Positions 2,491 through 62,625 of a DNA stretch of 64,000 nucleotides are shown here, piece by piece. The position numbers were made by a program, and so were the translations under genes. This stretch comes from Siphonodentalium dalli (taxonomy: Eukaryota > Mollusca > Scaphopoda > Gadilida > Siphonodentaliidae). The stretch lies in NCBI GenBank assembly GCA_032622095.1, contig CP136063.1:62695897-62759896 (forward strand), written 5' to 3'. The stretch's first letter is position 1, and every line of letters starts with the position of its first letter. The notes beneath the pieces were generated by a model, which had not been told where the DNA came from, did no database searches, and was given only the letters and a program-made list of their open reading frames with translations.

Positions 2491-2495
2491 CTGAA

Positions 2496-29105: not shown

Positions 29106-29148
29106 CCTTTGTTTTCAAGTTAAGCTATTGTGTCATTGACATTTTCTC
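29106..29148 (+). mobile_element. Right-end fragment of Helentron-type element
   Basis: AGTTAAGCTATTGTGTCATT followed by GACATTTTCTCATT is a decayed version of the Helentron-type 3' end. It abuts the left end of the next element. Confidence 0.6.
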
Positions 29149-29149
29149 A

Positions 29150-32677: not shown

Positions 32678-32764
32678 CACACGTCGTCAGTTTCCTCTTG
32701 TTCTGGCATGGGCCATCACTATTCATAAAGCACAAGGGAAAACACTTGATGAACTGGTTGTTAA

Positions 32765-38759: not shown

Positions 38760-40150
38760 ATTTTTTCCAGTTGTTTTTCTTAAATAATAAAGATGTATAA
38801 TAGTTTACACTTGTGTTAATATTGTTGTGTATTATACACATCTTATTCTATTCTTAGTTGTTGGATCAATCAAAGAGTATCAATTCAATATAATCAATGG
38901 TGTCACTTATTGTTGACACCTCTATCAGAGTAAATCCAATGGGATGTGGAGTAATGACTTGGTGTTTTGTAGGATCCTTTGATAATGCAGAAGAGTGACC
39001 TGTTGTGTTTTTATAAGAATTAGCTTGATTAATAATCATTAGTGTAACTAAATTAACTTGAGAACTGATCATACAACCCTATTGTGTTTACAAATTAATC
39101 CCAAAATGTACAACCTTATTCAAAATGATTCCAAATGTATAGCACTTCTATCACTGTTTTTGGATATTATCATATGATTTTATCTTAATAATATAAATAA
39201 AACACTTTATTATCTTTATTCAACATAAAATATGGTATTGGTATAAAACATGATGGTAGGTCGGCACCTGAAGGCTAACATAATTTTTGCACAGGGGGGT
39301 CCTCGTGAGTAAGCCCACTACCCACTTTTTGAGCAAAAACGTGCACGAGCCCCCCGGGATTACTGATGGGTGTATACATTAGTGGACAGCCAACAACTTC
39401 ACAGTGCCAATCCTATGCTGCTGGAGCTACCAACCCTATAGTTACACTACAAAATAAAGTAAATCATATGCTCTTCAGTTGAGGAGCTAATGGCCTCCCG
39501 TGGTTGTGGTTTTGAACACCAAAAAAGACAAATAAAGAGCTCCTCTTGATCAGCTCCGAGTTTCAGCAATTAAAGGTATGTTGATATTTTAAAGGCTAGG
39601 TGAAACACTCCCATGGAGTATTTGGATCATCTGAACAAATATTGTTATTGCTAAACATATCCAGATTTGCAGACAAATAAAAATGAGGCATATTTCGGAT
39701 TTTTAATGATATTATAGATTCTGCTTAATATGATGAAATCTCGAAACATGCGCAATCAAAATAACTAAATCAGATTAATAAATTCCAATTACCCTGTGGC
39801 TTACTCAAGATGTCAGATGAACAAGATACTTAAAAAAAAGACACTTTGTTCCTTTTCTTCGCATTTTTTTTTTATAATAAATCCATCCTCCATGAATTTT
39901 TATGTATCTCTGCTGTTTAGGTTAGAATCATTATTATTCCATCCTTTTCTCTTTCAGACTTCCTCAAAGCATACGCCTCAAAACAGCAGTTGCCAATGCC
40001 ATCGGCAGTTGATATAAATCAGCGATTCAACAGGAAATGTACCAATACCAGAACCAGAGATGTAATATTCAACTCAATCATTAAATCCACTTAATATTTG
40101 CTTTGTGAAGAATTCTGATTTCTGATTTCATGATTAGATGCTAGACTCAT
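38760..40150. other. No gene seen
   Basis: AT-rich sequence with ORFs below 75 codons and no motifs. CTTTCAG at 39952-39958 resembles an acceptor, but the following sequence has no recognisable coding content. Confidence 0.45.
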
Positions 40151-40152
40151 TT

Positions 40153-41885
40153 TTAGCTCAACTTTACTTTGTAAAGTTTGAGCTATTGCCATGGCTTTGT
40201 CGTCCGTGTGTGTGTGCGTGTGTGATGCGTCAACAATTTCCTTTAGCACGGGCTACAGTTCGTACCTTTGGTCCGATTATTATGAAATTTGTCATGGATG
40301 TTGACATTGACATGTAGATGGGAACGAGTCATTTTGGGGTCATTCGTAAAAAAAACATGGCCGCCAGTGGCCATCATGGATTTCAAAATTCAATCCATTA
40401 GCACGGGCTACAGGCCGTACTGTTTGTCTTATTGTCATGAAATTTGTCATGGATGTTAATATTGACATGTAGATGGGAACGAGTAATTTTGGGGTCATTC
40501 GGCCAAAAAACATGGCCGCCGGCAGCCATCTTAGATTTTACTCTTTGCATGACTAAATCCTTTGACACGGGCTACAGGTTGTACATTTGGTCTGATCATC
40601 ATCAAATTTGTCATGGATGTTAACATTGACATGCAGATGGGAACGAGTAATTTTTGGGTCATTCGGGCAAAAAACATGGCTGCCAGCAGCCATCTTGGAT
40701 TTTACTCTTTGTATGACTAAATCCTTTAGCACGGGCTACAGGTCGTAACTTTAGTCTGATCATCATGAAATTTGTCATAGATGTTGAAATTGGAATGTAG
40801 ATGGGAAGGAGTCATTTTGGGGTCATACGGACAAAAATCATGGCCGTCAGCGGCCATCTTTGATTTCAAAATTTAATCCATTAGCACGGGCCACAGGTCC
40901 TACTGTTCGTCTGATCATCATGAAATTTGTCATGGATGTTAACATCGACATGTAGATGGGAACGAGTCAAACTTGGGGTCATTCGGTCGAAAAACATGGC
41001 CGCCAGCAGCCATCTTGGATTTTACTCTTTGTATGACTAAATCCTTTAGCACGGACTACAGGTTATACCTTGAGTCTGATCATCATGAAATTTTTCATGG
41101 CTGTTGAAATTGGAATGTAGATGGGAACGAGTCATTTTGGGGTCGTTCGGCCATAAAACATGGGCGCTGGCAGCCATGTTGGATTTTACTTTTTGCATGA
41201 TTAAATGTTTGGCATGGGCTACAGGTCGTACCTTTTGTCAGATCATTGTGAAATTTGTCATGGCTGTTGACATTGACATGTAGATGGGAACGAGTCATTT
41301 TGGGATCATTTGGCCATAAAACATGGCCGCTGGTAGCCATCTTGGATTTTACTCTTTACATGACTAGATCCTTCGGCTCGAGCTACAAGTTGTACCTTTT
41401 GTCAGATCATTATGAAATTTGTCATGGCTGTTGACATTAACATTTAGATGGGAATGAATAATATTCGGGTCATTCGGCGATATAATATAGCCACCAGTGT
41501 GCATCTTGGATTTCCAAATTCAATCCATTAGCACGGGCTACAGGCCGGAATGTTCATCTGATCATCATGAAATTTGTCGTGGATGTTAATATTGTAGGTG
41601 GGAACAGGTCATTTTGGGGTCATTCGGCCATAAAACATGGCTGCATGCAGCCATCTTGGATTTTACTCTTTGCATGACTAAATCCTTTGGCACAGGCTAC
41701 TGGTCCTACTGCTTGTTTGATCATCATGAAATATGTCATGGCTGTCAATATTGACATGTAGATGGCAACGGGTTATTTTGGGGGCGTTCGGCCATAAAAC
41801 ATGGTCACCATCTTGGATTTTACTAAATTATTCGGCACGGGCAACAGGTCGTACTTTTGGTCAGATCATAATGAAATTTATCATT
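40153..41885 (+). mobile_element. Long tandem-repeat element, Helentron-type left end
   Basis: The left end TTAGCTCAACTTTAC..GTAAAGTTTGAGCT then TATTGCCATGGC is the same foldback as at 15724. About eleven core units follow, with the marks GACATGTAGATGGGAACGAG, AAACATGGCCGC and TAGCACGGGCTACAG. The array stops at about 41885 without the AGTGTCATTGACACT end, so the right end is lost or displaced. Confidence 0.75.
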
Positions 41886-42200
41886 TGGAAAAGACAGGAA
41901 ATCGTGTTAGAAGCATAAGAAATGACACACGGCCATACAAAGAGAATACAAGGAATTTGCCACAGAGAAATGAGATAGCAGAAAAGATCAAGCAACAAAG
42001 GGAGCCTCAGAGAGGGCTACAAAATTTATCATCGACGTTATGGTACCAAGTTGATAAAAGGCCAGTTTTCCAATTAGGCTAATTGAATTATGGAATAGTC
42101 TCCTGTCAGATGCCGTTGGAATGGAAATCTATAGAAATTTTTTTTCAAAATATTGAAAAAATCAATTCTATATGGCACGTACAGCTCTTTGATACTAGTA
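41886..42200 (+). pseudogene. Possible LINE C-terminal fragment
   Basis: Near 42075 the frame reads RLIELWNSLLSDAV followed by IYRNFF, resembling the RVxxxWNxLPxxVV...FK block at the C-terminus of many LINE proteins. Nothing else supports it and a stop lies between. Confidence 0.3.
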
Positions 42201-42231
42201 TGCAGGTAGATAAAAGGTCGGCCGACCACAG

Positions 42232-43224
42232 TGTCCCCCGACAACGTGGCAAGTCGATGGCCGCTTTGTTAAAGAATTTTTTTTAAATGTCTATGGCCGC
42301 TTTGTTAAAGAAATTAAACCAGAGTTTCAAATCTCTACATTTAAAACTGTAGGAGGAGTTGATTACACCATGAAGGTACCCAATCTCATCCAAAAGGCAA
42401 AAATGTTCCAAATTTTCTAAGTCGAAAACCCCCCAAAAATATGGAAAAAATTATATTTTTTATTAGCTATATAGATGTTGCAAATCACCAACATGTTAGG
42501 AACAATATCCCAGAGTTTCAAATCTCTACATTTAAAACTGTAGGAGGAGTTGATTACACCTTGAAGGTACCCAATCTCATCCAAAAGGCAAAAATGTTCC
42601 AAATTTTCTAAGTCGAAAACCCCCCAAAAATATGGAAAAAATGATATTTATTATTAGCTATATAGATGTTGCAAATCACCAACATGTTAGGAACAATATC
42701 CCAGAGTTTCAAATCTCTACATTTAAAACTGTAGGAGGAGTTGATTACACCATGAAGGTACCCAATCTCATCCAAAAGGCAAAAATGTTCCATAATTTTC
42801 TAAGTCGAAAACCCCCCAAAAATATGGAAAAAATTATATTTTTTATTAGCTATATAGATGTTGCAAATCACCAACATGTTAGGAACAATATCCCAGAGTT
42901 TCAAATCTCTACATTTAATACTGTAGGAGGAGTTGATTACACCATGAAGGTACCCAATCTCATCCAAAAGGCAAAAATGTTCCAAATTTTCTAAGTCGAA
43001 AACCCCCCCAAAAATATGGAAAAAATTATATTTTTGATTAGCTATATAGATGTTGCAAATCACCAACATGTTAGGAACAATATCCCAGAGTTTCAAATCT
43101 CTACGTTTAAAACTGTAGGAGGAGTTGATTACACCATGAAGGTACCCAATCTCGGACGCACGGACGGACGCACGGACGGACGAGGGTCATTTCTATAGTC
43201 CTCCGACGGAAACGTCGGGGGACA
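42232..43224. mobile_element. TIR element with 191-bp tandem core
   Basis: An 11-bp inverted repeat, TGTCCCCCGAC and GTCGGGGGACA, bounds the element. The core is about 4.6 units of 191-192 bp (CAGAGTTTCAAATCTCTACA starts each). Near the right end lies GGACGCACGGACGGAC, then the hairpin CCGACGGAAACGTCGG. ORFs on both strands repeat with the core and are not coding. Tandem-core MITEs of this plan are known from bivalves; no target duplication is visible. Confidence 0.75.
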
Positions 43225-43463
43225 AAAAATGATGAGTAGCTGATTGAAGAGGCCCATCCTGCAGTTATAATTAACATCAAGTAAGTAATTTTAAACTTGA
43301 GTGATATAGATTATAGGTTATTCATTTATCTATCTCATGAAGAAATTTCAACAAACAATTTTGTAGTGTTTGAGCATAAAACCATTTATGGTGCCTTTAC
43401 GTAAACATTACTAACAATGATCTTCATCTTCTCTTTTTGTGGTTATATACAAACAAAGTGATG

Positions 43464-43660
43464 TTAACCCTTGTGATTGGAGCTTGCTAAAATTTAATAA
43501 AGCCCTGTGCCAATGCATTGTCTTACATATGTGAGTCTCCATTCATACAGGGAGCCTCACATATAAATAAGATTTATGTCAAAAGATTGCATTTTAATCC
43601 TTAACTAATTAGCTTGACCTTATAAATCAGTGCAATCTCTTATAAATGTCAGCCTTTCCG
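43464..43660. mobile_element. Relic of the palindromic piggyBac MITE family
   Basis: TTAACCCTTGTG at 43464, then CCCTGTGCCAATGCATTGTC and a decayed second arm (GCCTCACATATAAATAAG) follow the order of the MITE at 32765. The right end is lost. Confidence 0.55.
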
Positions 43661-44090
43661 AAGTATGGCAAAAACTAATATAAATTGAAATAAAAGATTA
43701 TAAAATACAGTACCTTAAGAGTTCATTTACAATATTATATCCAGATAAACTGTATACATAGTATTCAAGTATAGACAAGTCATTTAGGGATATTAATGCT
43801 TTGTATATTATGGGAATTATTTTTGTTGTGTCCGTTACTAGAAACAAAGGTATTTTTTTAGGCCTAAATGTATAAAAAAAAAATACCAGCTCGCTCCCAA
43901 ATGGAGCAAATTTATTTATTTTATTCATAAATTATATCAACCACAGTATGTCTTTGATTGTGTATATATACATGTGTTGTTCAGATGTTTATTTCAAAAT
44001 CTAAAAAAAAAAAAAAAAAATCACACACGATTGGTGGTAAATGGATATCATGCATTTCCCCCGACAATTCGTTGGGAGTATGTGTATGGG

Positions 44091-44232
44091 AGGGCAAATT
44101 CAAATTTATTTATAAATGCACTGTTCAAAGCTAGCCCAATGCAATTGGGCTCAAAACGCGAAAAGGGCAAATTCAAATTTATTTATAAATGCACTGTTCA
44201 AAGCCCAACGCAATTGGGCTCAAAACGCGAAA
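44091..44232 (+). repeat. ~70-bp tandem duplication
   Basis: GGGCAAATTCAAATTTATTT with ATAAATGCACTGTTCAAAGC and AATTGGGCTCAAAACGCGAA occurs twice head to tail. The rest of 43660-44830 shows no gene. Confidence 0.85.
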
Positions 44233-44829
44233 AAAAATGCCGTTCACAATTCCATTTTCGCGTTTACTGTCTTCGGATCTATATTCCCCGCTTCGGGTGG
44301 ACACCAATTATCCGATTACGAGAACTCCCGGTTACGCCTTCGTAACGAATTTAACCTAAAATGAATAACTAATTAGGAAACGGAAATCGATCTTGCTTTT
44401 ATTGGCACTCGATCGTCATGAAGCATCTACTCACAAATTTATTATATATTACAGAAGCATACATATAGATACTGCTATTGAAGTAAGCAAAATAATTTTA
44501 GAATAGAGAAAAGTATTGGCCACATCAAAATATGACAATATGCGCGACACGTGTCACATGTCACTGGACACGTGGCGTTTTTTCATTTTATGTACCTCAC
44601 TTTCGATTTTTCATTTCCGGTCCTCATGTTGCATGCGCGATTCGGAGAATTTTCACACAGTTAACAACTCGATTTATTTTTATTAATCATTGCCTTTTTC
44701 ACCACAGTTATCACTAGCAACTATTATTCTATTACTATTGTAAGTATTCTTATACTGGCTTTGCTTATTTTTTTATCTGCATCTCCCTGTAATAATGATT
44801 TGTTTTTGTCACCAATTTTCGTGCATACT

Positions 44830-45802
44830 ATTTTTAAAATGGCTACTTTCTGTTTACACAATCATGGGGTAGGTTGATATGAATGTCATTGTCATCCCTC
44901 ACTTTGTGAATTTCGTGTTTCCGATGGTTTTCGTATGTTTATTTATCCGTGTGTGTGCCTGGCCCAGCTGAGCTGGCCACCAAGTATAATATGACATGTT
45001 TTGTATATACTTTATTAGTATATATAGTTTTGATGGAGCCTTGGGACTCCGAGGCTCTGTCAAAAATGAAAAAGTGTAAATAGTGGCCGGAGGCTATGTT
45101 CAAATTTTTAACTACGGACAGGGACATATCCAGGCCGTTTTTCATACTGTTGACCGGTTTTGGCGCCCAAACTACAGGCGCCCAAAAAAAAAATTCAATT
45201 TAAATTTTTTTGGTTTTTCAATTTAGGTCCCAAATCATAACAAGATGCCACCCAGTCTAATATGACAAGTTTTGTATATACTTTATTAGTATATAGTTTT
45301 GATTGAGCCTTGGACTCAAGAGGCTCTGTCGAAAATGAAAAAAAGTGTAAATAGTGGCCGGAGGCTATGTCCAAATTTTAAAATACGTACAGGGGACATA
45401 TCCAGGCTGTTTTTCATACCGTCGCCCAAAAAAAAAATTTAATTTAAAAAATTTGGTTTTTCAATTTAGGCCATAATTCATCCACAGTATATAATGAGTA
45501 TTTTCAAAATGGCTACTTTCTCTTTACAATCATGAGGGTATGTTAATATGAATGTCATTGCCATCTCTCGCTTGGTGACTTTGATGTTCCCATTGTCTTT
45601 GTCTGTTTATTCATCCATTAGTGCACCTGCTCCAGATGTCTGAGCTACTACCCACCCAGCCTGATATGACAAGTTCGACACTTGACAAGTTTTTGTATAT
45701 ACTATTTCCTATATAGTGGCCGGAGGCTCTGTCCAAGATGAAAACAGTTAAAATAGTGGCCGGAGGATCTGTCCAAATTTTTAAATGCATAAATAGCCAC
45801 CC

Positions 45803-45835
<33 letters not shown>

Positions 45836-46170
45836 GTTGGACGGGCTATCCAGATTTATAAATACATGTATGTAAATAACAGGGTAGTTTGATGAATGTC
45901 AAAGCCATCTATCTCGCGTGGTGAATTTGATGTTCCAATTGTCAATGGTCTTCGTCTTTTATTCATCTGCTAGTGTGCCTGTCCCAGATGAGTCAAGACA
46001 CCCAGTTTGATATGACAAGTTTTGTATATAATATATAGTGCCTGCGCAGGCTGTTTCTAAAATGAAAAAGTGTAACTAGTGGCCGAATGCTCTGTCCATA
46101 ATGAAAAAAGTGTAAATAGTGGCCGGAGGCCCTTTCCAAATTTTTAAATATGTAAATAGTGTAAATATGT
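44830..46170 (+). repeat. Long-period degenerate tandem repeat (~300-370 bp, four units)
   Basis: Each unit has GGTTGATATGAATGTCATTG, then CATGTTTTGTATATACTTTA, then GTGTAAATAGTGGCCGGAGG. Units begin near 44870, 45240, 45535 and 45885 and have diverged by indels. A G-run of about 28 lies at 45807-45834. Minus ORFs at 44939 and 45993 arise from the repeat and look non-coding. Confidence 0.75.
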
Positions 46171-46255
46171 AAATGGCTGACAAAATATAAAAAAAAATAT
46201 GTAATTATATGCCCAAAAGATTTGGTCAATTTTTAAAAGATGTTAAACTTTTAAT

Positions 46256-48337
46256 GGTACTCAATCCGAATTAATGCTGCCAAACCAGGGGGGGGTCTGG
46301 AAAAAAATTGCACATATAGGGCCCAAAAAGTTTTTTTCCGACCTCGAGGGACCCACCACCCCATTTTTGAAAAAAAATATTTTTTTCCTCCAAAATTTTG
46401 GGGACCCACCCCCCGTTTCTCATGTTTTTATCAATATTTCAGAGGTTTTTTTTAGCTGTTCTTCAATAACTGTGTTAACTGCCTTACTAATTGGTAAACA
46501 CAGATCAGAAAAACGAAAAATATACTGTATTTCCATGTGTTTCCTGGTGTTTTCAGTATCTAACAACAATATTAATTAAGCATTGTGTAGGTACACTATA
46601 TGTCACAAATTGCGCTAGACCCCATTATAGCCTTAATATATCGAGTGTGTTGTGTCTGACAGAGAACACTGGCCAGTGTAAATAGTGGTAAACAGGTCAG
46701 GGGTTCCACAATTATATGTGCATGATCAAAGAACTCTTTAGTCTTATCCAACGGGATGGGGTGGGGAGGGGAATTGTTTTTTGGTTAGGTATACACATAG
46801 ATATATGGTTATTATACTGCCCGATATTAGTCGGCGGGTATATAGTTGACGTCTCGAGCCGTCTGTCCGTACAAACATTTTGAATTTTAACTCAAGAGTC
46901 AGTTGTCATATTTGATGCCCTATGGCATGGTGACGGACCAGAAATGGGGGACGAATATGCATAATATCGCGGGTTGTGACCACCAATGCCTACCAGAGTT
47001 ATGGACCTGTTCGACTTTATGAAATTCAGTCCATACAAAGTTTTTGCAATATAAGTTAAGTGTCGGTTGTCAAATTTTGATGTGGTTTGGTATGGTGATA
47101 GACCAGAATGAAGAATTGAATGTCATTTCTCAATGCATCTGAATGCATCACATTATTTCAGTTCATCTATTTGTAAGTGATAACAGTATACAATTAGTAT
47201 TTTAGTTTCGTCTTGTTGAGCAGTAAAGCTCCCAGATGAAGTTCGGAAATTCAATGAGAATAGCGTCACCATCAGTTGGGATTGTCTGAGCAGTAAACAG
47301 TAATGTCATTCATCATAACCAATTCAGTTTTATTTGGATAATTGTTGCAAATTAACATTACTTGCAATCATTCAAGATGAGAAATAACCAGAAGGAATGA
47401 ATTTGATTACATGCCAGAACAAGACAGTATTTCAGACATTAGAAATTTATGAGATACCCTTTTCAATTTCATGTTATGCAACAATCAGGTTAATAATATC
47501 TACTAGTAGTCATCATTGAGTATTCACCATGTAGTATCCAATTTGTGATAGAGTTTTTTTTGTTTTATTACTTTTATTCAGATAATACAACTGGGTAATA
47601 TATTAATTTTGTTACTAAATATTTCTTCCGTTGATCATAAGTTTCCTGAATGTTAATACGGTGGTCCACTGTGAAGTGGTCCGGGATACTGTGAAATCCA
47701 GAATGTTGCTAAATCTGAGGCTAAAGAGTCACTTTAGCTGCCTATATAGCCCTATACCAACAAGCATGGTACTAACATGCTTACAAACAACATTACATGG
47801 TCAGTACTTGTAAATTGTTTGAAAAAAACCCATTTTAGAAAAAAATTAAAAGCACCATTTTTTCCGCCTCTGGACCACCCACCCACCCCGGCCCTATATA
47901 CGGAATTTTTTTGCAGACCCCCCCCCTGGCCAAACGACTATTTATTTGGCTTTGGGGGTGAAAAATATTTGATTCAAGTCGAGGAACTCACCCGTCAAAG
48001 CCCAAATTGATCAGATATTGGTCTTTGAAATAACTGTTTGTGGCCCAGAAATGAAAATCGTCAAACTGATTGCCTCAGACAAAATTGGCGAATGAAGATA
48101 AATAACTCTCTAATCAAGTGGTAATGTGGCCAAATTTTGTGATACGAAAGTGACAATATAGCCATATTTCGTTGAACAACATATTGATAAATATTATGTT
48201 TTGGGATATTTTATACCATGTTGACAGCGGTTTGGATTATTTTATTGTAATTAATCAATTCTGATAACAAAAGTGTACTTTGAAGAAATTTTGTTGTTGT
48301 AACTTGATATGGGGACCATTTGATCGGATTGAGTACC
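46256..48337. mobile_element. Long member of the GGTACTCAATCCGA-end family
   Basis: The segment begins GGTACTCAATCCGA and ends TCGGATTGAGTACC, the terminal repeat of the 0.5-kb element at 28106-28597. Internally, 47942-48010 (TTTGGCTTTGGGGGTGAAAA, CAAGTCGAGGAACTCA) also matches that element. The 2.1 kb between has no recognised transposase; ORFs are below 105 codons. Sequence TTTAAT lies next to both ends and may be a target duplication. It could instead be two separate ends. Confidence 0.5.
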
Positions 48338-48598
48338 TTTAATCTATGGTAAATACATGTAGGTGCCAGAGGTTCTGTCCCAATATTTAAATGTATATAA
48401 ATAGTGGTCCCATTGCATGATTTTTTTAGTTGATGGCACAATAACTATTGAATTGATTATCTGGGAAAAATCCCATGAGTGAAATAACATCTAAAATTCT
48501 CTTGTCAAATTCAAGACTAGTGCTATTTGAATACTAACACAACAATTTCCAATATTTCCTACTCCATCTATTTATATTTATTCTCATAACCATTTCAG

Positions 48599-48678
48599 GT
48601 GCTGTATCTCACTGTCACATAATGGCTCGCAAGAAATCTGCAGAGTGGAAACATAAAAAAAGACGTCTCAGTGAAATT
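48599..48678 (+). CDS. Helentron gene, exon 1
   Basis: The acceptor ACCATTTCAG and donor ATT/gtaagc bound a short exon with ATG at 48622. It encodes a basic 19-residue N-terminus (MARKKSAEWKHKKRRLSEI) and ends in phase 0, matching the phase-0 start of the exon at 49939. The 1.26-kb intron between has no other coding signal. Assignment to the Helentron rests on phase agreement and proximity; a captured host 5' exon is the alternative. Confidence 0.5.
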
Positions 48679-49938
48679 GTAAGCACATAGTTTCACAAAA
48701 TGTTTTCCGCAATATGTACTTTCAAACAGTTTTACTACATATTTGCTCATACTTTCTTAGGTCCCAATTGTTGGCGTTACACACTATCACACTCTGCGGC
48801 TCACAATATTAAAACATATATTTTTGTCAGTCAGTCACTATTCAGTCATAAAAATAGACAATCTTAAAGACATATCATGTACTTGTTTGGGTGCGTGAAA
48901 CTGATAAGTTAATATCCAGGTACTACGCCAACTGGAGGAATGTAGTATTCTACTAACGTCACCGAAAATCTCAAGCACATTGACCGTACCACTCCATAGA
49001 AAAACATTGTCTGAACTACACTAGTTTGTAAATATTTCCTACTCGAATCAGGACGCTTCTATCGGCGATAAAATAACGAAAATGATTTCGCACTCGGCAT
49101 TCACTGCACTTGATTAATATATAAGAATGGCAGTGTGTGCTGTGAATTTATATATAATATTTGCAAACATAAATACTTTGAACAAGATTATTCTCAGTTC
49201 TATTTGATCACACTACTGGTGTGTTTCACATCACTTTAAGTGACTTAAGTTAAGCCATGTTCTTCCGATTCTCTTGCTTCAAACTTTCCTTATTCAATTA
49301 AATTCTAAGATACTTGTACCTTGGCCGAGATTATTTTCATAATATTCAGTGTTGAAATGAAAGCAGGAACTCGTAATATGTACATGAGCAGCAAAGTACT
49401 CCAAAAAACAAGTAACATTTAATACTCAGATAACTAAAATTCCTATTTGCCCTAATTAAACATTTAATGTTTAAAAAATAAATGCAAGCTTTTTTATGTG
49501 GTTGAAGTATTCACTCTATAACAATATATTATCTTTGGTATTTAACTTTGCACATTATTTTATGTGATTAGAATTTTACTCTTAACCAAACGAAGTCTAG
49601 ATAATTTTTACAATAACAAGCGGCAACTGCCTTTTCAACTAATCTTCTGAAAAATTAAGACTGAATCAGTCATATGATGCAGAAAAACCCTGATTCCTGG
49701 AAATGTTATCTTAATCAGTCAGTTTTTGACTTTTAATTCTCATTGCACACATTGTAATATTGCATTTTTATTCCTGATTGTAATAATTGTCAATGTATCC
49801 ATTGCAGTAGTGAATGTTTGATCTGCACAAAAGAGAGTCCTAATTTTACAAGTGATCACTTTGATCATGCTGTCCCACACTATAACTGTTGTTACTATTT
49901 CGTAAATTAGAATCTCACTTTCCATATTTCTTTTTCAG

Positions 49939-51840
49939 GCTCCTCCTGAGGTAAAGAACAAGATTACCAGACACAGTGGCACATCAGAAAGTCTTACCGA
50001 CTCTAAAGGCACAAAAACATCAGACAGTCATGCTGACTCTAAAGCCACGAAAACATCAGACAGTCATGCCGACTCTAAAGGCACGAAAAACTCAGAAAGT
50101 CATGCCGACTCTAAAGGCACGAAAACATCAGACAGTCATGTCGACTCTAAAGGCTCGAAAAACTCAGAAAGTCATGCCGACTCTAAAGGCACGAAAAACT
50201 CAGAAAGTCATGCCGACTCTAAAGGCACGAAAAACTCAGAAAGTCATGCCGACTCTAAAGGCACGAAAACATCAGACAGTCATGCCGACTCTAAAGGCTC
50301 GAAAAACTCAGAAAGACATGCCGACCCTAAAGGCACGAAAAACTCAGACAGTCTTGCCGACTCTAAAGGCACGAAAACATCAGACAGTCTTGCCGACTCT
50401 AAAGGCACAAAAACATCAGACAGTCTTGCCGACTCTAAAGGCACGAAAACATCAGACAGTCATGTCGACTCTAAAGGCTCGAAAAACTCAGAAAGTCATG
50501 CCGACTCTAAAGGCACGAAAACATCAGACAGTCATGCCGACTCTAAAGGCTCGAAAAACTCAGAAAGACATGCCGACTCTAAAGGCACGAAAACATCAGA
50601 CAGTCATGCCGACTCTAAAGGCTCGAAAAACTCAGAAAGACATGCCGACCCTAAAGGCACGAAAAACTCAGACAGTCTTGCCGACTCTAAAGGCACGAAA
50701 ACATCAGACAGTCTTTGCCGACTCTAAAGGCACAAAAACATCAAACAGTCTTGCCGACTCTAAGGCCACGAAAACATCAAAAAATCATTCTGACTCAAAA
50801 ACAACAAAGCAACCAGAAACTCTTCTTGACTACCCAGGCACGAAAACCTCAGACAGTTTTGCCACTAAAAGCGCAAAAACATCAAAAAATCTTCCTAACT
50901 CAAAATATGCTAAAACATCAGAACATCTTCTTAACCCAAAAAACACAAAACCATCTTCTTAACCCAAAAAACACAAAACCATCAGAAACTCTTCCTCACT
51001 ACGCAGGCACAAAAACCTCAGACAGTCTTGCCGACTCTAAAGACACAAAAACCTCACATAATCTTGCCAATTGTAACAACCACAAAACCACAGCAGCACA
51101 CAGTCGAAACAATTCACAAATATTATCCACAAATGACAACAAAATAAGGAAATGTACAACTGTTGAAATGAAAAAAACGTTAGGTGAAACATGCAACAGT
51201 ACTGACAACTGCAGTATACTATCTCAAAAAGGAACCAGTACAATCTCTCCACCAACTTCCTCACCTGTCAGAAATGACAAACAAGTTGAAATTGGTTCAT
51301 TTCACCAAGGAAATGACATTTTCTCTCCACAATCCAGTGGCAGGCAATGTACATGTAATGCACTTTGTTCAATAGCAATGTTGAAAAACCACCTATCTGT
51401 ACAAACTCATACAATTGACAGCGTACTTCTCGCTGGCGATATTCTTTACAATAACATAATGCGGAGACTCATTGCCAATAAGAAAAGGACACAGTATGCC
51501 TATATTGGATTTGACGAAATACCCACAAAAAATATTTTGAAGAATTCCAACTTCCCAGGTGTACTTGGAATTGGTGTAGACCCAAAACATCTCCAGCTTA
51601 ATATATCAATGGCTTTCAAGTTATCAGACAACCTTATAGTTATAATGAATGATTACACTATTTCATTGTTCAAAAATAACACAGGACACATTCCAGAGAT
51701 TTTAGAGGTATGCCTACTTCTCATGGAACATCAGTACTCATTCAGTTTCAGACATTGCAATCTGTTTGTCAACATGTTTCCACTTTAGCAGACAAACTAT
51801 TTCATTCTAATAGGGACATAATTCATTACGATATTTTACC
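49939..51840 (+). pseudogene. Helentron N-terminal part: 12-residue repeats and putative cysteine protease
   Basis: The exon opens APPEVKNKITRHSG and runs into about twenty copies of a 12-residue repeat (ADSKGTKTSDSH and variants). Then follows a Ser/Thr-rich stretch and a globular domain starting SGRQCTCNALCSIAM, with IDSVLLAGDILYNNI, ending HSRDFRGMPTSHGTSVLIQF. A Cys near the start (about 51350) and a His (51689) with a GxSVL strand fit a papain-fold protease like those reported beside Helentron Rep proteins (OTU- or C76-like); this is inference. Defects are an extra T near 50714, a 28-bp tandem duplication at 50929-50984, and a frameshift just before the His block. The frame open from 49976 over the repeats is the wrong one. 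Confidence 0.55.
49960..50790 (+). repeat. 36-bp coding minisatellite
   Basis: About twenty units of GCCGACTCTAAAGGCACGAA plus AACATCAGACAGTCAT lie in tandem. Variants (GGCTCGAAAAACTCAGAAAG) alternate in blocks, suggesting recent unequal exchange. The period is a multiple of three, so the array encodes a 12-residue repeat in the gene frame and also keeps a second frame open. Confidence 0.95.
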
Positions 51841-51844
51841 GCTC

Positions 51845-53330
51845 TCTATGACAATTATAGACTCCTCCACAGCACACACATCGCTCATGCAAAACTCCTT
51901 TTCAAACCAAAATAATAAGTTTGAAGCACCAAACAGTCACAGCAATCCACAGAACACTCCTCATAATAAACACTCCGAGAAAGATACAAGACATCAACAA
52001 TATCAACAAAAACATACTCAAGATCACACAATACTTATGAAAAATTACCTTGCTGATCAGCACTTGAGACAAAAGGCTTCAGAAGAAGCACAGGATACAT
52101 TGAGGAAGCAATATCAGAGAGAGTACAAAAGGCGACAACGTTCCAATGCTGTTTTCCGTAAGCTGGAGAAGGACAAGCAAATTACAATCAAACAAAGAAT
52201 AATATTAAACCCACTCACCAGACTGGAGGACAATGAGGCACATAGGAAATCTATGAGGCAATCTAGATCTGACCCAGTCAAAAGACTCCATGAAAAACAT
52301 AGAAAAGCTCTGAGAAATTCTAGAACAAACCCAGTCTTCAAACTAAAAGAAAATGAAGCAAATAGGAAATCTATGAGGCAATCTAGATCTGACACGGTCA
52401 AAAGACTCCATGAAAATGAAGAACATAGAAAAACTGTGAACAAATCTAGAACTGACCCAGTCATCAAACTAAAAGATAATGAAGCAAATAGGAAATCTAT
52501 GAGGCAATCTAGATCTGACCCAGTCAAAAGACTCCATGAAAATGAAGAACATAGAAAAACTGTGAAAAAATATAGAACTGACCCAGTCATCAAACTAAAA
52601 GATAATGAAGCAAATAGGAAATCTATGAGGCAATCTAGATCTGACCCAGTCATCAAACTAAAACATAATGAAGCAAGTAGGAAATCTATGAGGCAATCTA
52701 GATCTGACCCAGTCAAAAGACTCCGTGAAAATGAAGAACATAGAAAAACGGTGAAAAAATGGAGACAGAACCCATTTGTTCAAGAAAGGGAACGCTCATC
52801 AAAACAATCGTCTCGCATGAAAAATAGGAGCACTGAGATCTTAAATGACAGAATTCGTAAAGCTGAGAAGAGAAGACATGACGCAGATTTCAGTAAACTT
52901 GAACTCTCACACAGACAGAAGTTCAAATATGGAGGCACATTGCAAGACTGTATAGCCAAATTTAATCAGTCCATTAATATTGGACCAGTATTTGTTTGTT
53001 CTGTCTGCCAACAAACTTGGTTCAAGGAGTCGGTTGTGCAAATAAATTCTGACACCAAAAGTCAACTGCCTGATATATTTCAAAGATGTTTGACAGACTA
53101 CAAGTCTGTTGATGATAAAGAGTGGATCTGCACTACATGCAATAAAAGTCTGAAAAATGGGAGAATTCCTACTCTGTCAATAACAAACAAGATGGGATTC
53201 CCTGAAAAACCACCAGAGCTTGAACTCTTCCAACTTGAGGAAAGACTTATTTCACTCAGAATTCCTTTCATGCAAATCAGGGAACTTCCAAGAGGTGGTC
53301 AATTATCCTTGAGAGGAAATGTAATGTCCC
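51845..53330 (+). CDS. Helentron: basic repeats and DUF6570
   Basis: The plus frame open from 51710 continues from the protease tail. At about 52200-52780 it has five to six tandem basic repeats built on EANRKSMRQSRSDPVKRLHE, alternating with EEHRKTVKKYRTDPVIKLK. At 52978-53330 comes a domain with GPVFVCSVCQQTWFKESVV, EWICTTCNKSLKNGRIP, then PELELFQLEERLISLRIPFM and GGQLSLRGNV. This matches DUF6570, a module found before the Helitron_like_N domain in animal Helentron proteins. The C-x2-C pairs suggest zinc binding. A frameshift near 53322 moves the reading to VPCDISTTISALPRKL. The basic repeats may contact nucleic acid. Confidence 0.7.
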
Positions 53331-55432
53331 TTGCGATATTTCCACAACCATCAGTGCTTTGCCCCGGAAGCTATCAGATACAGCTACAATCCCAGTCAAG
53401 TTAAAGAAAAAGGTTGCTTTCAAGAAAACAGACTTTACAGAAAATATTCGACCCAGTAAAGTTTTTGACGCACTAAAATGGCTAATGACAAACAGTACAC
53501 TATATAAAGATTGTGGCATTCAAATTGATGACTCATGGGTAGAGCAGGTTAATTCTGAAACTTGCGAGATGACAGAGTTTCTTGAAGAAACAGGTGCTCA
53601 AACTACCCAAAAATCTGAGAACACACATCACAAACAAGACAAATTGACAGGTAATGATGATGATCTTGTAGAATCGGATGATAATTTCAGTGAAATTGAT
53701 GAAGCAGAACAACCATCTTCTGGAAATATGGATACAATGCTAGACGAAGCTGAAGTAACAAATGATAAATTATATACATTTGCTCCTGGAGAAGGACAAA
53801 TACCGATTAGTTTATATCAAGATCAAGATGCTGAATTTCTTGCCTTCCCAACAATTTATTATGGTGAAAGACGACCGAAGAATGAAGAGAGACACTCACG
53901 TGTTTACTTCAGTGATATCTGTAAATGGGAATTGCGGTCTGTTGACAGAAGGGCTGCTAAATCTGTACCAAATCTGTTTTTCAAATGTAAAAAACAACAA
54001 ATGAAACAAATAACAGACAAAGTCAATCTCGCATTGAGAAAAGGGAAGAAGAAAACAGGCACTGTAACTGCTGGAGATCTTTTAAACCCACAAAGCATAA
54101 GTAACATTGTCAACTTGGATGAAGGGTTCTATTGTTTTCGAACTTTGAGAAATTCACCACCATATCTTGAAAAGCGAAAAAAAGATGTATTTGCCATGAT
54201 CCGTCAACTTGGATTGCCAACTTTCTTTGCGTCTCTTTCTGCTGCAGACACTAAATGGCCTGAGTTACTCAAAGTGCTAGGAACACTTGTAGACAAGAAA
54301 AGTTACACTGATGATGAAATAAAAGCAATGGACTGGAAATAAATAACAAGACTACTCAGTTCTGATCCTGTTACATGTTCTAGATTTTTTGACCACAGAG
54401 TGCAAAACTTCATAAAAATCATTTTGCAAAGCCCCCATGCTCCAATAGGTCTTTTGCGCTCATTTTTCTATCGAGTTGAATACCAACAAAGGGGTGCACG
54501 TCATATTCACCAACTTATGTGGATGGAAAATGCTCCAAAATATAAACAGAATACAGAAGAAGAAATAACACAATATATAGACAATTATATATCTTGCTCA
54601 AAAGATGTCGATCAGGAATTACAACCTTATGTACATATAAACACTCACAAGCATTCAAAAACATGTCGCAAGAAAGGCAAAGCTATTTGCAGATTTGGCT
54701 ACCCATTGCCGCCAATGAGGAAAACATGTATACTGGAACCCATTGTGGATGAAACTGAAAAATATGTTATGGAACACCATTCAGCTAATTATAAGAACAT
54801 TACTGAAATTCTCAAAGATGAGAAAGATGGTCTCCAACTATCATTTGACCAGTTCTTGACGGATCTTCAGTTAAGCGAGGAAGAATATATTATGGCCATT
54901 CGAAGCTCGATAACAACAGCTAAAGTTTTTTTGAAGCGAGAGCCATCTGAGATAAGAGTCAATGCATATATGAAGCAGCTTCTTGGAACTTGGAGGGCAA
55001 ATCATGACATCCAATTTTGCCTTGAGCCATATGCATGTGCCATGTACATTGTCAATTATATTAACAAATCAGCTAAGGGTATGAGTGAACTGCTACAACG
55101 AGCAAGTAAAGAAGCAAAACAAGGAAATATGGACATTAAAAAAACTGTTAGGCACATCGGTAATCATTTCTTAAATAGTGTAGAAATATGTGCTCAAGAG
55201 GCTGCTTATCTTGTTCTTCAACTGCCTGTGACGAAATCCAGTCGAGATGTTGTCTTCATAAACACATCTCATCCTAAAGATTGTACTTTCTTGGTCAAAA
55301 CGAAGCAAGCTCCCGAAAAAATGCCAGCAAATAGTACAGACGTTGAAGCAGATAACATTATCAAAAGATATGCTCGAAGGCCAACATGTTTAGAGAATTG
55401 GTGTTTGGCAGACTACTGTTCACAGTTGAATG
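53331..55432 (+). pseudogene. Helentron Rep (Helitron_like_N, HUH) domain, one stop
   Basis: The frame holds RPSKVFDALKWLMTNSTLY, an acidic linker, FLAFPTIYYGERRP, then QLGLPTFFASLSAADTKWPE. A TAA at 54340 follows MDWK, but the same frame resumes with DPVTCSRFFDHRVQNFIKII and FFYRVEYQQRGARHIHQLMW, where HIH (54502-54510) is the HUH metal-binding motif. Downstream, AMYIVNYINKSAKGMSELL holds the paired Tyr region that attacks DNA in rolling-circle Rep proteins. The end (ENWCLADYCSQLNV) leads by a frameshift near 55432 into the helicase. Rep nicks and joins single strands at element ends. Only the one stop interrupts about 670 codons. Confidence 0.8.
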
Positions 55433-57722
55433 TCACAAACAGGGGTTCCAAAAAGCAACAAAAATACTGAATCCGACCTATCAAAAACTAATATGACCAA
55501 TAATGAAGATACATCATCAGAACATAACTTACCCAGTGACAATGAAAATGCAGAAAGTCACCCTAACCCACACAAGACCTTCAACATTGCATGCAAAGAT
55601 GGCACCATTATAAAAACCCGACGAGTTCAAAAGGTGATTCGATATGTCAATTTCAGTAAGCAGACTGATTACGAAAATTACTGTCGAGAAAAACTCATGT
55701 TATTTTCCCCATGGAGAGAAGAGGAAACTGATTTGATTGGACACTTTGATACTTACCAACAATCATTTGAAAGTATCAAAAACTTTTTGCAAAACAAGAT
55801 GAAAGAATATGCAAATCATGCTGACATTGTGGATAATGTTGAGCAACATGTTACAGATTTCCATTCTGATGCATTTGACAAAGTTGCACCATCTACCGAA
55901 GAAGCTAACCGAGAAGATTTGGAAAGCGCTAGTAAAGACAGCGAACAGTTTATCTATTTTGACCCAGATAGACCTGATTCACATAGGGACGGTGATATAG
56001 GCCCAGACATTGGTTTGGCCAGTACAACAACTGGAAATACAACAGAACAGTTACAACATATCATTCCGGATGATCAATATTATGCTTTATTACGATCATT
56101 GAACATGAAACAAAGTGAATTTTTTCTCCATATTTTACATTGGTTTAAGACCCATGAAGAACCGTTGTATTCCTTTCTTACCGGAGGAGCTGGAGGTGGC
56201 AAATCAGTTGTGATTAAAGCTGTATATCAGGCATTATACAGACACCTCTGCACCAAAGCGGGACAGGACCCTAATAAAACCAAAATTATTCTCTGTGCAC
56301 CAACAGGAAAAGCTGCCTGTAACATTGGTGGTACTACAGTACATGCTGCATTCGGCATACCTGCTAACCAAGGTTATTCTAATTACGATAGACTCACTAT
56401 CTCTGACTCAAAATTACAAACACTTCAAAGCAAATTCAGTTATTTGACATTGATAATTATTGATGAAATTTCCATGGTTGGTTGCGATATGTTAAAGTTC
56501 ATACACCTTCGCCTACAGCAAATAAAATGTAATAAAAAACTATTCGGAGGAGTAAGCATTCTTGCAGTCGGGGATCTATACCAACTTCAACCAGTGTATG
56601 ATGGGTGGATTTTTTCTGATTTAACACAACAGACTGGTGCAATGGCTACTAACCTGTGGAAAGATCTTTTCAAAATGTATGAACTAACTGAAATAATGCG
56701 CCAAAAAGATGACAAATCTTTTGCTGAATTATTAAACAGGCTGAGAGTTAATGAACAAACTAAATCCGACATTGAGCGTTTAAAGACAAGAATAATTAAA
56801 CCTGGAGACAATTATCCAAACACTGCTCCCCATCTTTATAGATTTGGTTTACAAGTTGATGAATTCAACTCTAACGTGTTTGAAATGCATCACTCAAAAA
56901 AATGTATCATTCCTTCTCTCGACACTGTAGTTGCTGATGTAACACCAAAGGTTAAAGAAATAATACAAAACACAATATCTCGAACCCCTGCTCATTCAAC
57001 AGCTGGGCTATTCCACAAACTTGAAGCAGCTGAAGGATTACAATACGAGTTGACTGCGAATGTGGATCTCGACGACAGCTTAGGCAATGGAACTGCTGGA
57101 ATTCCAATGCATATTGACTGCAGAATGCCTGACACAGACAGACCTAGCATATTGTGGGTTAAATTTGACAAACCTAATGTAGGCTCAATCAGAAGGAAGG
57201 AATACCGCACACTTTTCAACCAAAACATACAAGCTGACTGCACCCCTATTTTTGACATAAAGCGATCTTTTCATGTCAATAGTCGTTACTCACAAAATGT
57301 TTCACCCATTAGGATTCAGTTTCCCCTAAGATTGTCAGCAGCTAAAACAGTTCACAAATCACAAGGTGACACGGTTGAACAAGTTGTAGTTGATCTGAGT
57401 GGAAGAACTTCTGCCCACGTACATTATGTTGCTATCAGCAGAGTTACAAATAGCAATGGCCTTTATGTGCTTCAATTGGCAGAAGACAAAATAAAAGTTG
57501 ACAAACGTGTCGCTGTTGAAATGGAAAGGCTGAGGTCAGACTCGCAAAACAAATTCATATTATGCTACACACCAGTCTATCAACTCCCTGACAACACCAC
57601 AAGGATTATGTTCCACAATGCCAGATCAGTTCACAAGCATTTTGAGGACATTGCTGCTGCCAGAAACTTTCAAGCATGTGACATCATAGGATTGGCAGAA
57701 TTTAGATTAACTGACAGACATT
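55433..57722 (+). CDS. Helentron PIF1-type helicase
   Basis: The frame is open for about 760 codons. After a linker come FLTGGAGGGKSVVIKAVYQA (Walker A, GxxGxGKS at about 56183-56206), LCAPTGKAACNIGGTTVHA (motif Ia), LIIIDEISMVG (Walker B, DE), ILAVGDLYQLQPV (motif III), and near the end LSAAKTVHKSQGDTVEQVVV (motif V) with YVAISRVTNSNGLYVL (motif VI). This is a complete superfamily 1B PIF1-like helicase, which unwinds DNA behind the Rep nick. The start is a frameshift junction from Rep, not a true initiator. The C-terminus continues into the endonuclease start (RIMFHNARSVHKHFEDI) and breaks by a frameshift near 57722. Confidence 0.88.
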
Positions 57723-58243
57723 GGCATGTACACATTTGATGGATATCACTCATCTTACAACAATTGCCACATGAGTAACGGAGGCAGATCACATCATGGT
57801 ATTCTCACTTTGTACAGAACAAATTTTGAAATTAATCCATCAGCAATAAAACACTTCAGTGAAGCAAATTTAGAATTCACTATGATCAGGTTTCCAAATG
57901 GACCACAAGTCGTGTTTCTCTACCGAGCTCCATCTTTACCACTTGCTCAGTTTAAAAATTTCATATCTCAGAACATGACACGTCACATCAATATTCAGTT
58001 GCCATTCATTTTTGCGGGAGACTTCAATGTTGACCTTACTGAACCTAGCTCTTCACATTTTGTTCAATTCATGAAAGACACCTTCAAATGCCAACAGCTT
58101 ATTAATCAGAATACTTACCAAACAACAGTAGCCAAATCCACAATTGATCTCATTTTCACAAACATGACTGATGTTCTCACAACAGTGATAGAGTCCATGG
58201 TCTGATCATAAGGGAGTTGTTGCTGCAATTCCATCAAGTAAAT
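57600..58243 (+). pseudogene. Helentron C-terminal EEP endonuclease
   Basis: The domain begins in the helicase frame (FHNARSVHKHF, CDIIGLAEFRLTD) and continues after a frameshift with GGRSHHGILTLYR, FIFAGDFNVDLTEPSSS (catalytic Asp-Asn) and KSTIDLIFTN. After another shift near 58195 it ends SDHKGVVAAIP (catalytic Asp-His) at a TAA, 58241. These are the hallmarks of endonuclease/exonuclease/phosphatase (apurinic-like) enzymes. An EEP domain after Rep-helicase distinguishes Helentrons (Helitron2 group) from canonical Helitrons. All catalytic blocks survive; only two single-base shifts break it. Confidence 0.8.
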
Positions 58244-58420
58244 AAATGGCACTGCCAGGTCTAAACCATGCAGCCCTAACTTATTGATGAAATCCTTGCA
58301 ATGAACATAACTTCATCTACAAATATAATACCCAAGGCCTTTTAATGCTCATTTGTTACACTCCTTTTTAATATCTCTATTCATTGCTCATCCCACAAAA
58401 ATTAACTTCTTTACAAAGAT

Positions 58421-58448
58421 GAGCTACAGTGTCATTGACACTTTCATT
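58421..58448 (+). other. Helentron 3' terminus with hairpin
   Basis: GAGCTACAGTGTCATTGACA then CTTTCATT contains the 7-bp hairpin AGTGTCA-T-TGACACT (58428-58442), 178 bases after the endonuclease stop. The same end closes the tandem-repeat elements at 17078-17104 and 29645-29671. I take it as the element's 3' boundary and likely replication-termination signal. Confidence 0.7.
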
Positions 58449-58449
58449 A

Positions 58450-60249
58450 TTAAACTTTTGAGCAAAATATTTGCAGAATATAAATTCTCAGGTCCAATAA
58501 CTCTCAATATATTCACTAGACCGGCGACTTTTAATCAGTAATTTACATCTTTTTCATCTGAATCTAATCTTTTTGAGGTACTCGTAAATTTTATGAACTG
58601 AAACCTGTTCAGTATTATTACGCCTACAGTCAACCTTCCATATACATGTATTTCAATTTTTAACATATTTTCTCTTTATTTCTCTTTGCAGGAATAAGAC
58701 GGAATATAGAATATAGAATCATGACATGAGAATCGGGACTTAACTAAATTAATTGACAAAATGTACATAGACGTTTTTGCTGAAAGTGTTATCTAGGCAT
58801 GTTTTTCAAGTGTTATCTATCCTAGAAACATGATATGGGATAACAACATCTGCATCATTCCGCATGTAGTTTATTTCACAGGTATTTGGCCAAAAAAAAT
58901 ATAAAATTATGGAAATGTGTTATCTATAATAGTGCTGAGAGAGAGAGAGAGCTTGTATAGCCCGTACAGAAACTGCACATGTGATTTGGGTAGAAACAGC
59001 TTAGAATTATGTTAGTTTCATATGTTAATCATCCCTGCTACATTAGCAGCATATTAGATCTAGTGTGCAAAATATTTCTAACCTCATTGCTCACATTAGC
59101 ATAGCTTAAGTATTCATACTGGGTATATATTTCTCCCAGTCTGCCCATGGTGTGTCCAAAAATCTAACTTAGACTAATTAAGTTAGTGCAGGTTAGAGAA
59201 TAGATATTTAGTTATCTGGCCAATGCTTTCTTGACACAAATCCCCCATGTATGGACAATTTAATGACTTTCACATCTGGGTTTTATCCCCAGTTCAGACC
59301 AGGACTCCTATGCTAAAGAATTTTATGGCTGTGATAAAGGTTCCCCGGAACCTAGTATTCTGTTCAGTTCACTTGGAGTTTACAATTCCCAAGTTAAAGC
59401 TGCTTGTTTTCTGTGGGACTGATAGGATAAGTTGTTCTTGTTTGGTGAATTAAAACCTCGTTGGCTTTTTTCATGGCACGGTAAGTGACTGCATGCATTT
59501 AAACATATCGACAGTTAAGAATTTAAGACACGAGAAAATCGTGACTTTTGTCAACTTCCTTTCCAAAATTGAACCTTAAACATTTCATAATGATAGTATT
59601 ATGGTTTTTACATTGAAATTAAGGGTTAATTTATAATTATTCAGTTATTAATTCATTCATGTATAGAATCGTTTGTCAGTTTTCTTATCTCATTCGCACA
59701 TCGACATGGTAATTTTTAAGGACATGTGGTCTCTTGTGTGCCTTTACTGTGGGTTCTAATATCTAATTTATCAACCAGGTAGACTACATGTATATTAAAG
59801 TTGATTTAAATTTTATTTTCAAATATTATCAATCATATTTCTAGAATAAATAAAGATGGACCATTACATCAAATAAACTAAATTCTGCTATTGTTTATTG
59901 ATTCTAGTTAGTAATTAGACAGAACAAATGTGCGAATCTATTTACAAAATGAATTAATTGTAGGAAATAAACAATTTATGGCAGTTTTCATTGTTTCATC
60001 GAAGTGATTTTTACAGTTATTTGGAATATTCCATGAAGAGCAGTTAACATGAACATTGCAGTGTATGTGATGTATATTTTATGTATTTATATAGTTTTTA
60101 AAAGCAATACTGTATGATATTATTGATATAGTGTTTTTTTTATAAATTGTTACCCAGCTGGACATATGTACAATTACTTTAAAGTTAATTTGATAACCTG
60201 CCTGCACATGTGGCATTTTTATTCATTCCTGATGTAGAATTTACTAACA
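58450..60249. other. No gene seen
   Basis: AT-rich non-coding sequence. An ORF at 59247-59453 has no motifs. A (GA)n run lies near 58937-58950. Confidence 0.5.
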
Positions 60250-60361
60250 TAGAACTAACGTGCTAATTTGCTAACATAAAGCATATGAGCAATTTTATAG
60301 CTCTTAAGAGCTATAAAATTGCACATATGCTTTATGTTAGCAAATTTGCACGTTAGTTCTA
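60250..60361. repeat. Near-perfect 112-bp palindrome
   Basis: Arms of 56 bases start TAGAACTAACGTGCTAATTT and meet at GCTCTTAAGAGC with no spacer. Only a few mismatches occur. It is probably a foldback element; TAGTTCTACG words recur to about 60510. Confidence 0.9.
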
Positions 60362-60537
60362 CGTTAGAAATATGGTTGGGAATTTTCCAACGTATAACTA
60401 CTGTGCATATCCGCTAACCTGACCACATGTGCAATATGTTAGTTTTTAAGCTCCGCCCATCTCACTTTTGACAGTTAAATTACAACATTAGTTCTACATT
60501 AGTTCTACGTTGGCAATCAGATTAGAAATCCGCTTAG

Positions 60538-62280: not shown

Positions 62281-62514
62281 GCGCCGATATACGACTTCTC
62301 TGACTTTTTAAAATTTCGCGGTAAAATTCTGTATTCCCGAAGTTGCTTAACTTCGGTGATCACACAAAGAGTCTAACGAACCTGACCAAGTGATCTAGAC
62401 CTCTCGATCAGAGAAGTCTTCGGCCTTCTATATTTACAACGCGACCGCTACACTACTCCCGAGGAATATATGGGATATATAAATATCCCATTGCAGTTCT
62501 TAACGAATGCCGGC

Positions 62515-62625
62515 TGATACGGACCCTGGCTCTTACGGACCCTGGCTCTTACGGACCCTGGCTCATACGGACCTCCGGCTGATACGGACCCTGGCTTATA
62601 CGGACCCTCGGCTTATACGGACAAG
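62515..62625 (+). repeat. ~16-bp tandem repeat
   Basis: Six to seven units of a CTGGCTCTTACGGACC type repeat with small variations. Confidence 0.85.

Follow-up and report, generated by a model that had tools for sequence, protein, structure and literature searches.

Two VTD-Helentrons of zebrafish, DrT1 and DrT2 (PMC9741609; PDB 8ADD), carry a viral tegument-like deubiquitinase (VTD) domain in one protein with an HUH domain, a helicase and a C-terminal apurinic/apyrimidinic (AP)-type endonuclease. According to the sections of Erven et al. 2022 (PMC9741609) drawn on here, Helentrons with a VTD occur in vertebrates, insects, cnidarians and molluscs. We found the same combination in a window of 64,000 nucleotides from the scaphopod Siphonodentalium dalli (contig CP136063.1; C3:62695897-62759896 of its 2.23-Gb genome of nine contigs), on the forward strand of which a Helentron-type element occupies positions 40150-58448. 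A first-pass annotation of this DNA had called the protease a poorly described part of such elements; this view had to be given up, because VTDs in Helentrons were reported in 2022 and the architecture was therefore already known. Compared with DrT1 and DrT2, the window element has a single VTD with a broken catalytic triad, and it has a satellite array and termini, which those sections of PMC9741609 do not treat.

For the non-coding parts, the closest systems are the Helentron/HINE and DINE-1 elements (Thomas et al. 2014, PMC4067079), which share with the window element the subterminal inverted repeats, the 3' palindrome and the lack of a target duplication. In the cited sections of that paper, the short partners are held to derive from Helentrons by deletion, and some of them contain tandem repeats. 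In contrast to those elements, the one described here is 18.3 kb long, and the autonomous-type copies themselves bear satellite, in sister copies on both sides of the gene. In oyster, 11 Cg_HINEs have been described whose monomers average 140-180 bp (Vojvoda Zeljko et al. 2020, PMC7492417). The Cg_HINE/Pearl layout consists of a left module with an 11-12-bp subterminal inverted repeat (subTIR), an inverted repeat and a microsatellite, a core of ~140-180-bp tandem repeats, and a right subTIR with a palindrome; it is shared by the S. dalli elements, whose central repeats of ~164 bp fall within that range. None of the 10 autonomous oyster Helentrons could be related to the Cg_HINEs, and the relation is stated as unresolved in the part of PMC7492417 dealing with it, whereas in S. 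dalli autonomous-type and short copies have common modules; the likeness to the oyster elements stated here is one of layout. Two later papers, PMC12628747 and PMC11136912, name no autonomous partner for such elements in the passages drawn on here.

We conclude that the window element is probably an 18.3-kb defective copy of an autonomous Helentron-type rolling-circle transposon, belonging to a satellite-bearing family whose HINEs would presumably be mobilized by the autonomous copies. A more specific proposal, to which we give an even chance, is that a satellite array 5' of the VTD-Helentron gene and a frame-ending satellite unit serving as 3' untranslated region (UTR) characterize the family, and that repeated deletion between them makes HINEs. 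The family would then be the missing autonomous source of the genome-filling Pearl/Cg_HINE-type satellite, which would thus form part of the gene for its own transposase and be spread by it.

Boundaries, termini and sister copies

The ends of the element were determined by joining its flanks, 39950-40149 and 58449-58648 (200 + 200 nt), and searching the genome with the joined sequence. Thirteen other places matched across the join, for example C9:150107544 (1-354, 87%), C6:85358501 (1-399, 80%) and C5:201668254 (1-280, 91%), some of them resembling copies of one another; family counts from the genome searches are lower bounds throughout, the 30-mer and 26-mer pattern counts given below being exempt. 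Five fetched empty sites, aligned at the join, read GACTC(A/G), in one case GATTCA, followed by TG(T)TTA, and the window junction, for comparison, reads GACTCA, the element, ATTAAAC. In these five alignments the insertion lay at a T-bearing site, the element opening with five T, and no target duplication was seen at the junction. The empty sites and the lack of a target duplication define 40150-58448 as the inserted unit to within ~5 nt, a single insertion with one 5' end and one 3' end (≤6 mismatches). The first-pass annotation had placed the element at 48599-58448. Its 3' end was correct, but its start was wrong, because the flanks of 40150 and 58448 match uninterrupted places when joined, and it missed 8.4 kb with the 5' subterminal repeat and the satellite array. 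When 46.5-49.95 kb was compared with 58.24-61.5 kb for terminal inverted repeats, only 11-12-nt matches were obtained, since the 5' end is at 40150.

The 5' terminal module (40150-40238) comprises a T run, a subterminal repeat AGCTCAACTTT (40155-40165), an internal inverted repeat with a predicted stem (40173-40184) and a GT-rich microsatellite-like stretch. It reads TTTTTAGCTCAACTTT...AAAGTTTGAGCT and also starts short copies such as L029. Directly after it stands an array of about ten ~164-bp satellite units (40239-41879), followed by a non-coding 5' region with further tandem blocks (41880-48175), namely 191-bp units at 42201-43216 and ~271-bp-type units at 44976-46159. The stretches 43820-44354 and 46247-48175 have no counterpart in the sister copy on C5 and may be later insertions. 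The 3' terminal module (58246-58448), which was identified from short copies, its hairpin and the count of a 30-mer, contains a subterminal repeat AAAGATGAGCT (58415-58425), complementary to AGCTCAACTTT at 10 of 11 positions, and a predicted hairpin/palindrome with a 6-bp stem (58428-58442), and its terminus is TTTCATT. Long and short elements of the family have these termini in common.

A DNA search with 53400-58245 identified near-full sister copies on C5 (94%), C4 (93%) and C2 (93-95%, in two pieces), together with several 3' fragments and 18 short matches starting at 58130. The copies on C4 and C5 contain the VTD, the tandem repeats and long open frames, and frame breaks are also present in the sister copies, but at different places. 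The C5 copy is collinear with the window: satellite is followed by pieces of 41880-45459 and 48176-48407 and then by the gene, with ~6 kb of other sequence between, and the satellite-to-unique junction at 41880 recurs on this other chromosome (94% over 334 bp). The agreement of C4 is looser, with matching pieces at 41.9-46.2 kb and past 48.3 kb. In C5, C4 and C2, the sequence past the end of the EEP domain matched the satellite (blastn, 3.5e-22 to 2.2e-18). The frames of C5 and C4 end in ...SDHKGVVAAIPSMTETP(P/S)PAIDND(M/L), and their TAG opens a satellite-like motif, TGTAGATCGGAACG, the satellite itself reading TGTAGATGGGAACG. In this family the gene is bracketed by the ~164-bp satellite: an array stands on its 5' side and, in the sister copies, one unit serves as the 3' UTR.

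The gene and its domains

The gene is a single spliced one, and the order of its parts is a basic N-terminal peptide, a variable tandem tail, the VTD, basic repeats, a zinc finger with DUF6570, an HUH nickase, a PIF1 helicase and an EEP endonuclease. Pfam identified four of these in order on the forward strand: DUF6570 (53156-53538; 7.4e-09 and 5.1e-07, in two frames, being split by a frame shift), the Helitron_like_N domain of the HUH Rep (54094-54519; 2.7e-07 and 1.4e-10, one on each side of a stop, with a two-Tyr motif near 55054), the PIF1 core (56099-56719; 4.9e-23), and Exo_endo_phos PF03372 (1.8e-07) in the AP-endonuclease-like EEP domain at the C-terminal end (57620-58245). The PIF1 core has the Walker A motif GGAGGGKS and DEIS, and the EEP domain, which is collinear with that of relatives, has GDFN and SDHK. 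Zinc-finger-like cysteines, CSVCQQTWF ... CTTC, occupy conserved alignment columns at 52990-53145. HUH Rep and PIF1-type helicase lie in separate frames in the window's broken gene and in one long frame in C5. With full-length relatives, tblastn gave the frame pieces 51255-51692, 51686-53356, 53323-55437, 55433-57736 and 57774-58199, and SDHK begins at 58201 in a frame different from that of the last piece. There are six frame shifts (near 50727, 51680, 53340, 55434, 57720 and 58200), a single stop (TAA, 54340-54342, inside the piece 53323-55437 and splitting the HUH Rep) and a 28-bp tandem duplication at 50912-50983. These results agree with the first-pass annotation in the order and strand of the modules, in the kind and number of breaks, and in calling the element a near-complete Helentron, an identity on which domains, termini and empty sites concur. 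The motifs GRQC, HIH, GGAGGGKS, DEIS, GDFN and SDHK are present as it had listed them, but the Asp-x-His of the VTD is broken.

An intron near the 5' end, also claimed previously, is supported by sequence features, with slightly refined borders. Exon 1 (48622-48678) encodes a basic N-terminal peptide MARKKSAEWKHKKRRLSE; the peptide from the ATG at 48622 ranked first among 1139 open ATG peptides on both strands of the window when scored with an N-terminal profile of relatives built from 33 distinct sequences. The putative phase 0 intron (48679-49938) runs from GTAAGC to CAG, and the downstream frame 49906-50727 contains no Met codon. Exon 1 is kept in C5 (93%) and C4 (82%), both of which also have the donor GTA.

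The VTD (51255-51850) was assigned by a match to a PDB sequence and by profile. The piece 50691-51785 matched one PDB sequence, 8add_A (E 4.1e-09), the zebrafish Helentron VTD whose structure Erven et al. 2022 (PMC9741609) determined. A VTD profile made from 61 relatives matched two adjoining frame pieces (1.8e-24 and 1.5e-04) and no other among 1188 open reading frames (ORFs) of the window. Its Cys lies in the frame running to ~51692 and its His in the next frame, from ~51686. The catalytic Cys is present (QCTCN); the Asp-x-His coincides with the frame shift near 51680 and can be read whole in neither frame piece, and in C4 and C5 FDSHSRD (Asp-Ser-His) is read intact. A protein search with the VTD piece alone scored 0 of 133 candidates, and the C-terminal VTD piece alone gave only an unrelated chain (E 0.31). 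Among the 120 relatives listed, 73 carry PF04843 by hand count, and many of the 47 without it are shorter or partial; homologous copies do not, then, generally lack the protease, and C4 and C5 have the repeats as well. Judged by its residues, the window VTD is a descendant of the deubiquitinase family that should make no working enzyme in this copy. OTU was also considered as the identity of the protease and rejected in favor of the VTD, which fits; it had no match in the eight pieces scanned with Pfam, and PF02338 (OTU) was found in 2 of the 120 relatives listed.

Two repeat tracts flank the VTD. The Ser/Lys-rich tail before it (49939-51090) is a tandem repeat of 12 residues (36 bp), and its copy number varies, a repeat anchor having 13 (C5), 69 (C4) and 21 (window) matches in the stretch that holds the gene. 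The tails of relatives have other units, of 8, 9, 10, 13, 17, 22 residues and more, and 49 of 55 showed a period at ≥0.3 identity. The 12-residue repeats are thus one among many unlike N-terminal tandem tails of such proteins. Behind the VTD lie ~21-residue basic repeats that are predicted to be helical (52208-52774). The corresponding tract before the zinc finger had a period at ≥0.5 identity in 85 of 89 relatives and none in the other four; the 89 are those with a tract of at least 135 residues, 31 of the 120 being excluded for a shorter tract or for having no zinc motif by the pattern used. In all 85, the best period was 17, 21 or a sum of 17 and 21, which suggests a simple structural regularity; a targeted search of the open-licence literature found no paper on this rule. 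Units of 17 and 21 residues differ by about one helix turn. AlphaFold predicted the window tract as chained ~20-residue helices with short breaks (pLDDT ~60-90, the pTM of the whole model being only 0.28), and a Foldseek search of the repeat/zinc model against the PDB gave no match with E ≤0.001. To judge by its charge, the basic tract may bind DNA.

A search with the Rep part gave 509 matches, of which the 120 listed were used as relatives. The closest of these belonged to Ptychodera flava (59%, with 96% of the query covered), and many of the named ones were from bivalves. Scans of viral and prokaryotic contigs identified no related locus. A tblastn search of phages matched 452 records, and the ten listed were helicase, hypothetical or unannotated. 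A model of a relative, without VTD and EEP, matched the Helraiser transposase (PDB 7LCC; 7lcc_A) at 15% identity.

Short satellite-filled elements and the proposed partnership

The genome contains 21,444 matches to the 3' terminal 30-mer (10857 + 10587; ≤2 mismatches; reversed control, 0) and 10960 to a 26-mer of the 5' module (5566 + 5394; ≤2 mismatches; control, 0), the two counts differing in length and stringency of pattern. BIV160 and DTC84 stand in the same circle as the Pearl/Cg_HINE-type elements. From the 18 short matches starting at 58130, 14 copies were fetched, and all 14 have the ~164-bp satellite to the left of 58130. Nine keep the terminus, homology stopping at 58448-58451 and the flanks being unlike beyond; in L025 the hairpin is damaged and the match stops at 58436, and in L024, L028, L029 and L030 it breaks off sooner. 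Only 31 places in the genome have the EEP piece at 58130, so that short elements of the window type form a small side branch. Ten further 3' ends, the first listed from one end of C1 and including two near-identical pairs (eight distinct), all have satellite within 500 nt upstream, with only partial units in L059, L064 and L065. Four other long-ORF loci did not have the 3' terminus in the 3' sequence retrieved for them, their best matches differing at 12-13 of 30 positions; these loci represent at most three families, two being near-identical and a third related.

The window itself contains a complete short HINE (15721-17105, forward strand), with a 5' module (pattern at 15745), satellite at 15797-16993 and a 3' hairpin end at 17076. 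This HINE is 84% identical to the 3' UTR of C5 (296 aligned positions) and 57% identical to the UTR of the window copy (197 positions). A second, diverged HINE (29147-29671, forward strand; 3' end at 29642) retains parts of one or two satellite units. Beside the C2 copy (L023, L040, L045) lies an inverted stretch in which a single 5' module is combined with eight 3' ends, with satellite in between. Plant Helitrons show the opposite arrangement, multiple-5'/single-3' tandem arrays, in the cited section of PMC12628747.

The short elements correspond to the long element minus the stretch between two satellite parts, or from satellite to 58130. This suggests that the VTD-Helentron with its integral satellite is likely to be the autonomous partner of the HINE/Pearl-type family. 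By analogy with Helitrons, the HUH domain would nick at termini marked by the subterminal repeats and the 3' hairpin, PIF1 would unwind, and EEP would help to nick the target. The VTD may shield transposition proteins from ubiquitin-driven turnover, as proposed in the sections of Erven et al. drawn on above (PMC9741609). Loss of the sequence between two satellite parts, by recombination or by copy-choice in rolling-circle replication, would leave the HINE layout, and autonomous copies would presumably mobilize the products. Activity, mobilization and the deletion route are all inferred here.

Several observations weigh against this interpretation. With its frames broken and its VTD triad disrupted, the window copy cannot itself be autonomous, and its own 3' UTR is unlike that of C5, C4 and C2 and contains no satellite unit. 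Among the sister copies, C2 has neither exon 1 nor the VTD, C5 is without the outermost 5' 90 bp, and in C4 the 5' end was not reached by the comparison and the satellite array stops ~7.5 kb ahead of the first matching unique sequence. Pfam PF04843 matched the VTD of neither the window nor C4 nor C5, and the six PF04843 matches over the cut-off in the genome all lie at other places. The terminus was tested at only four other loci, 3.5 kb each, of the at least 151 HUH matches, and the partnership is read from shared ends.

The alternative that survives best holds that a satellite HINE came first and that the gene block was captured into its array. Satellite brackets the gene block, and the stop codon of C5 and C4 lies inside a satellite motif, as capture would have it; however, HINEs are described as Helentron deletion derivatives in the cited sections of PMC4067079, and all 14 fetched window-type HINEs retain the EEP coding end from 58130, which deletion fits better. 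We regard capture as unlikely. It is distinctly unlikely that the frame breaks are sequencing or assembly errors in an intact copy: six of the eight breaks are small shifts and there is one stop only, but the sister copies are broken elsewhere and the 28-bp duplication is atypical of base-calling error. A composite, in which a HINE lacking its 3' end lies next to, or was invaded by, a Helentron lacking its 5' end, would account for the same satellite module also standing alone as HINEs and for the missing close satellite-unique junction in C4, and the empty sites by themselves are compatible with nesting. Against it, C5 has the same junction on another chromosome, and simple nesting predicts two 5' or two 3' ends where one of each was found; we judge a composite highly improbable. 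That a 9.9-kb Helentron begins at ~48599, with an unrelated host repeat upstream, has the presence of all coding parts in that stretch in its favor but is barely credible, given that the homology of C5 and C4 continues upstream, in C5 as far as the satellite, that the joined flanks of 40150-58448 match uninterrupted sites, and that no further Helentron 5' end was found between 41880 and 48600 (≤6 mismatches). A domesticated host gene or ordinary coding gene, which the long conserved frames might recall, can be dismissed, since the locus has terminal repeats, empty sites and broken frames and recurs as sister copies on C5, C4 and C2.

Under the reading of an autonomous Helentron family with an integral satellite, a single genome permits a base-by-base comparison of autonomous-type copies with short derivatives, which opens satellite origin, the deletion step and mobilization to testing. 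On this reading, moreover, the driver of a very abundant repeat may be a Helentron that encodes a viral-type deubiquitinase, which is a reason to test the role of the deubiquitinase in transposition.

Other elements in the window and genome

Among the HUH matches of the genome, several lie in frames longer than 2500 aa. In the window, more decayed Helentron fragments were identified on the forward strand at 30243-31593 and 32640-32894, with a basic repeat tract, a zinc-finger part and a helicase piece. Reverse-transcriptase frames at 2206-3150 and 21657-23090 on the same strand (RVT_1 2.6e-21 and 1.6e-24) are probably non-long-terminal-repeat (non-LTR) elements. A 16-bp tandem repeat, GGCTCATACGGACCCT, occupies 62512-62622. 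Inverted-repeat elements lie at 28115-28544, 32784-33014, 60241-60370 and 24618-24747, with arms of 132, 80, 65 and 64 nt, respectively, and an arm of the element at 28115-28544 is found again within the Helentron, at 47937-48031.

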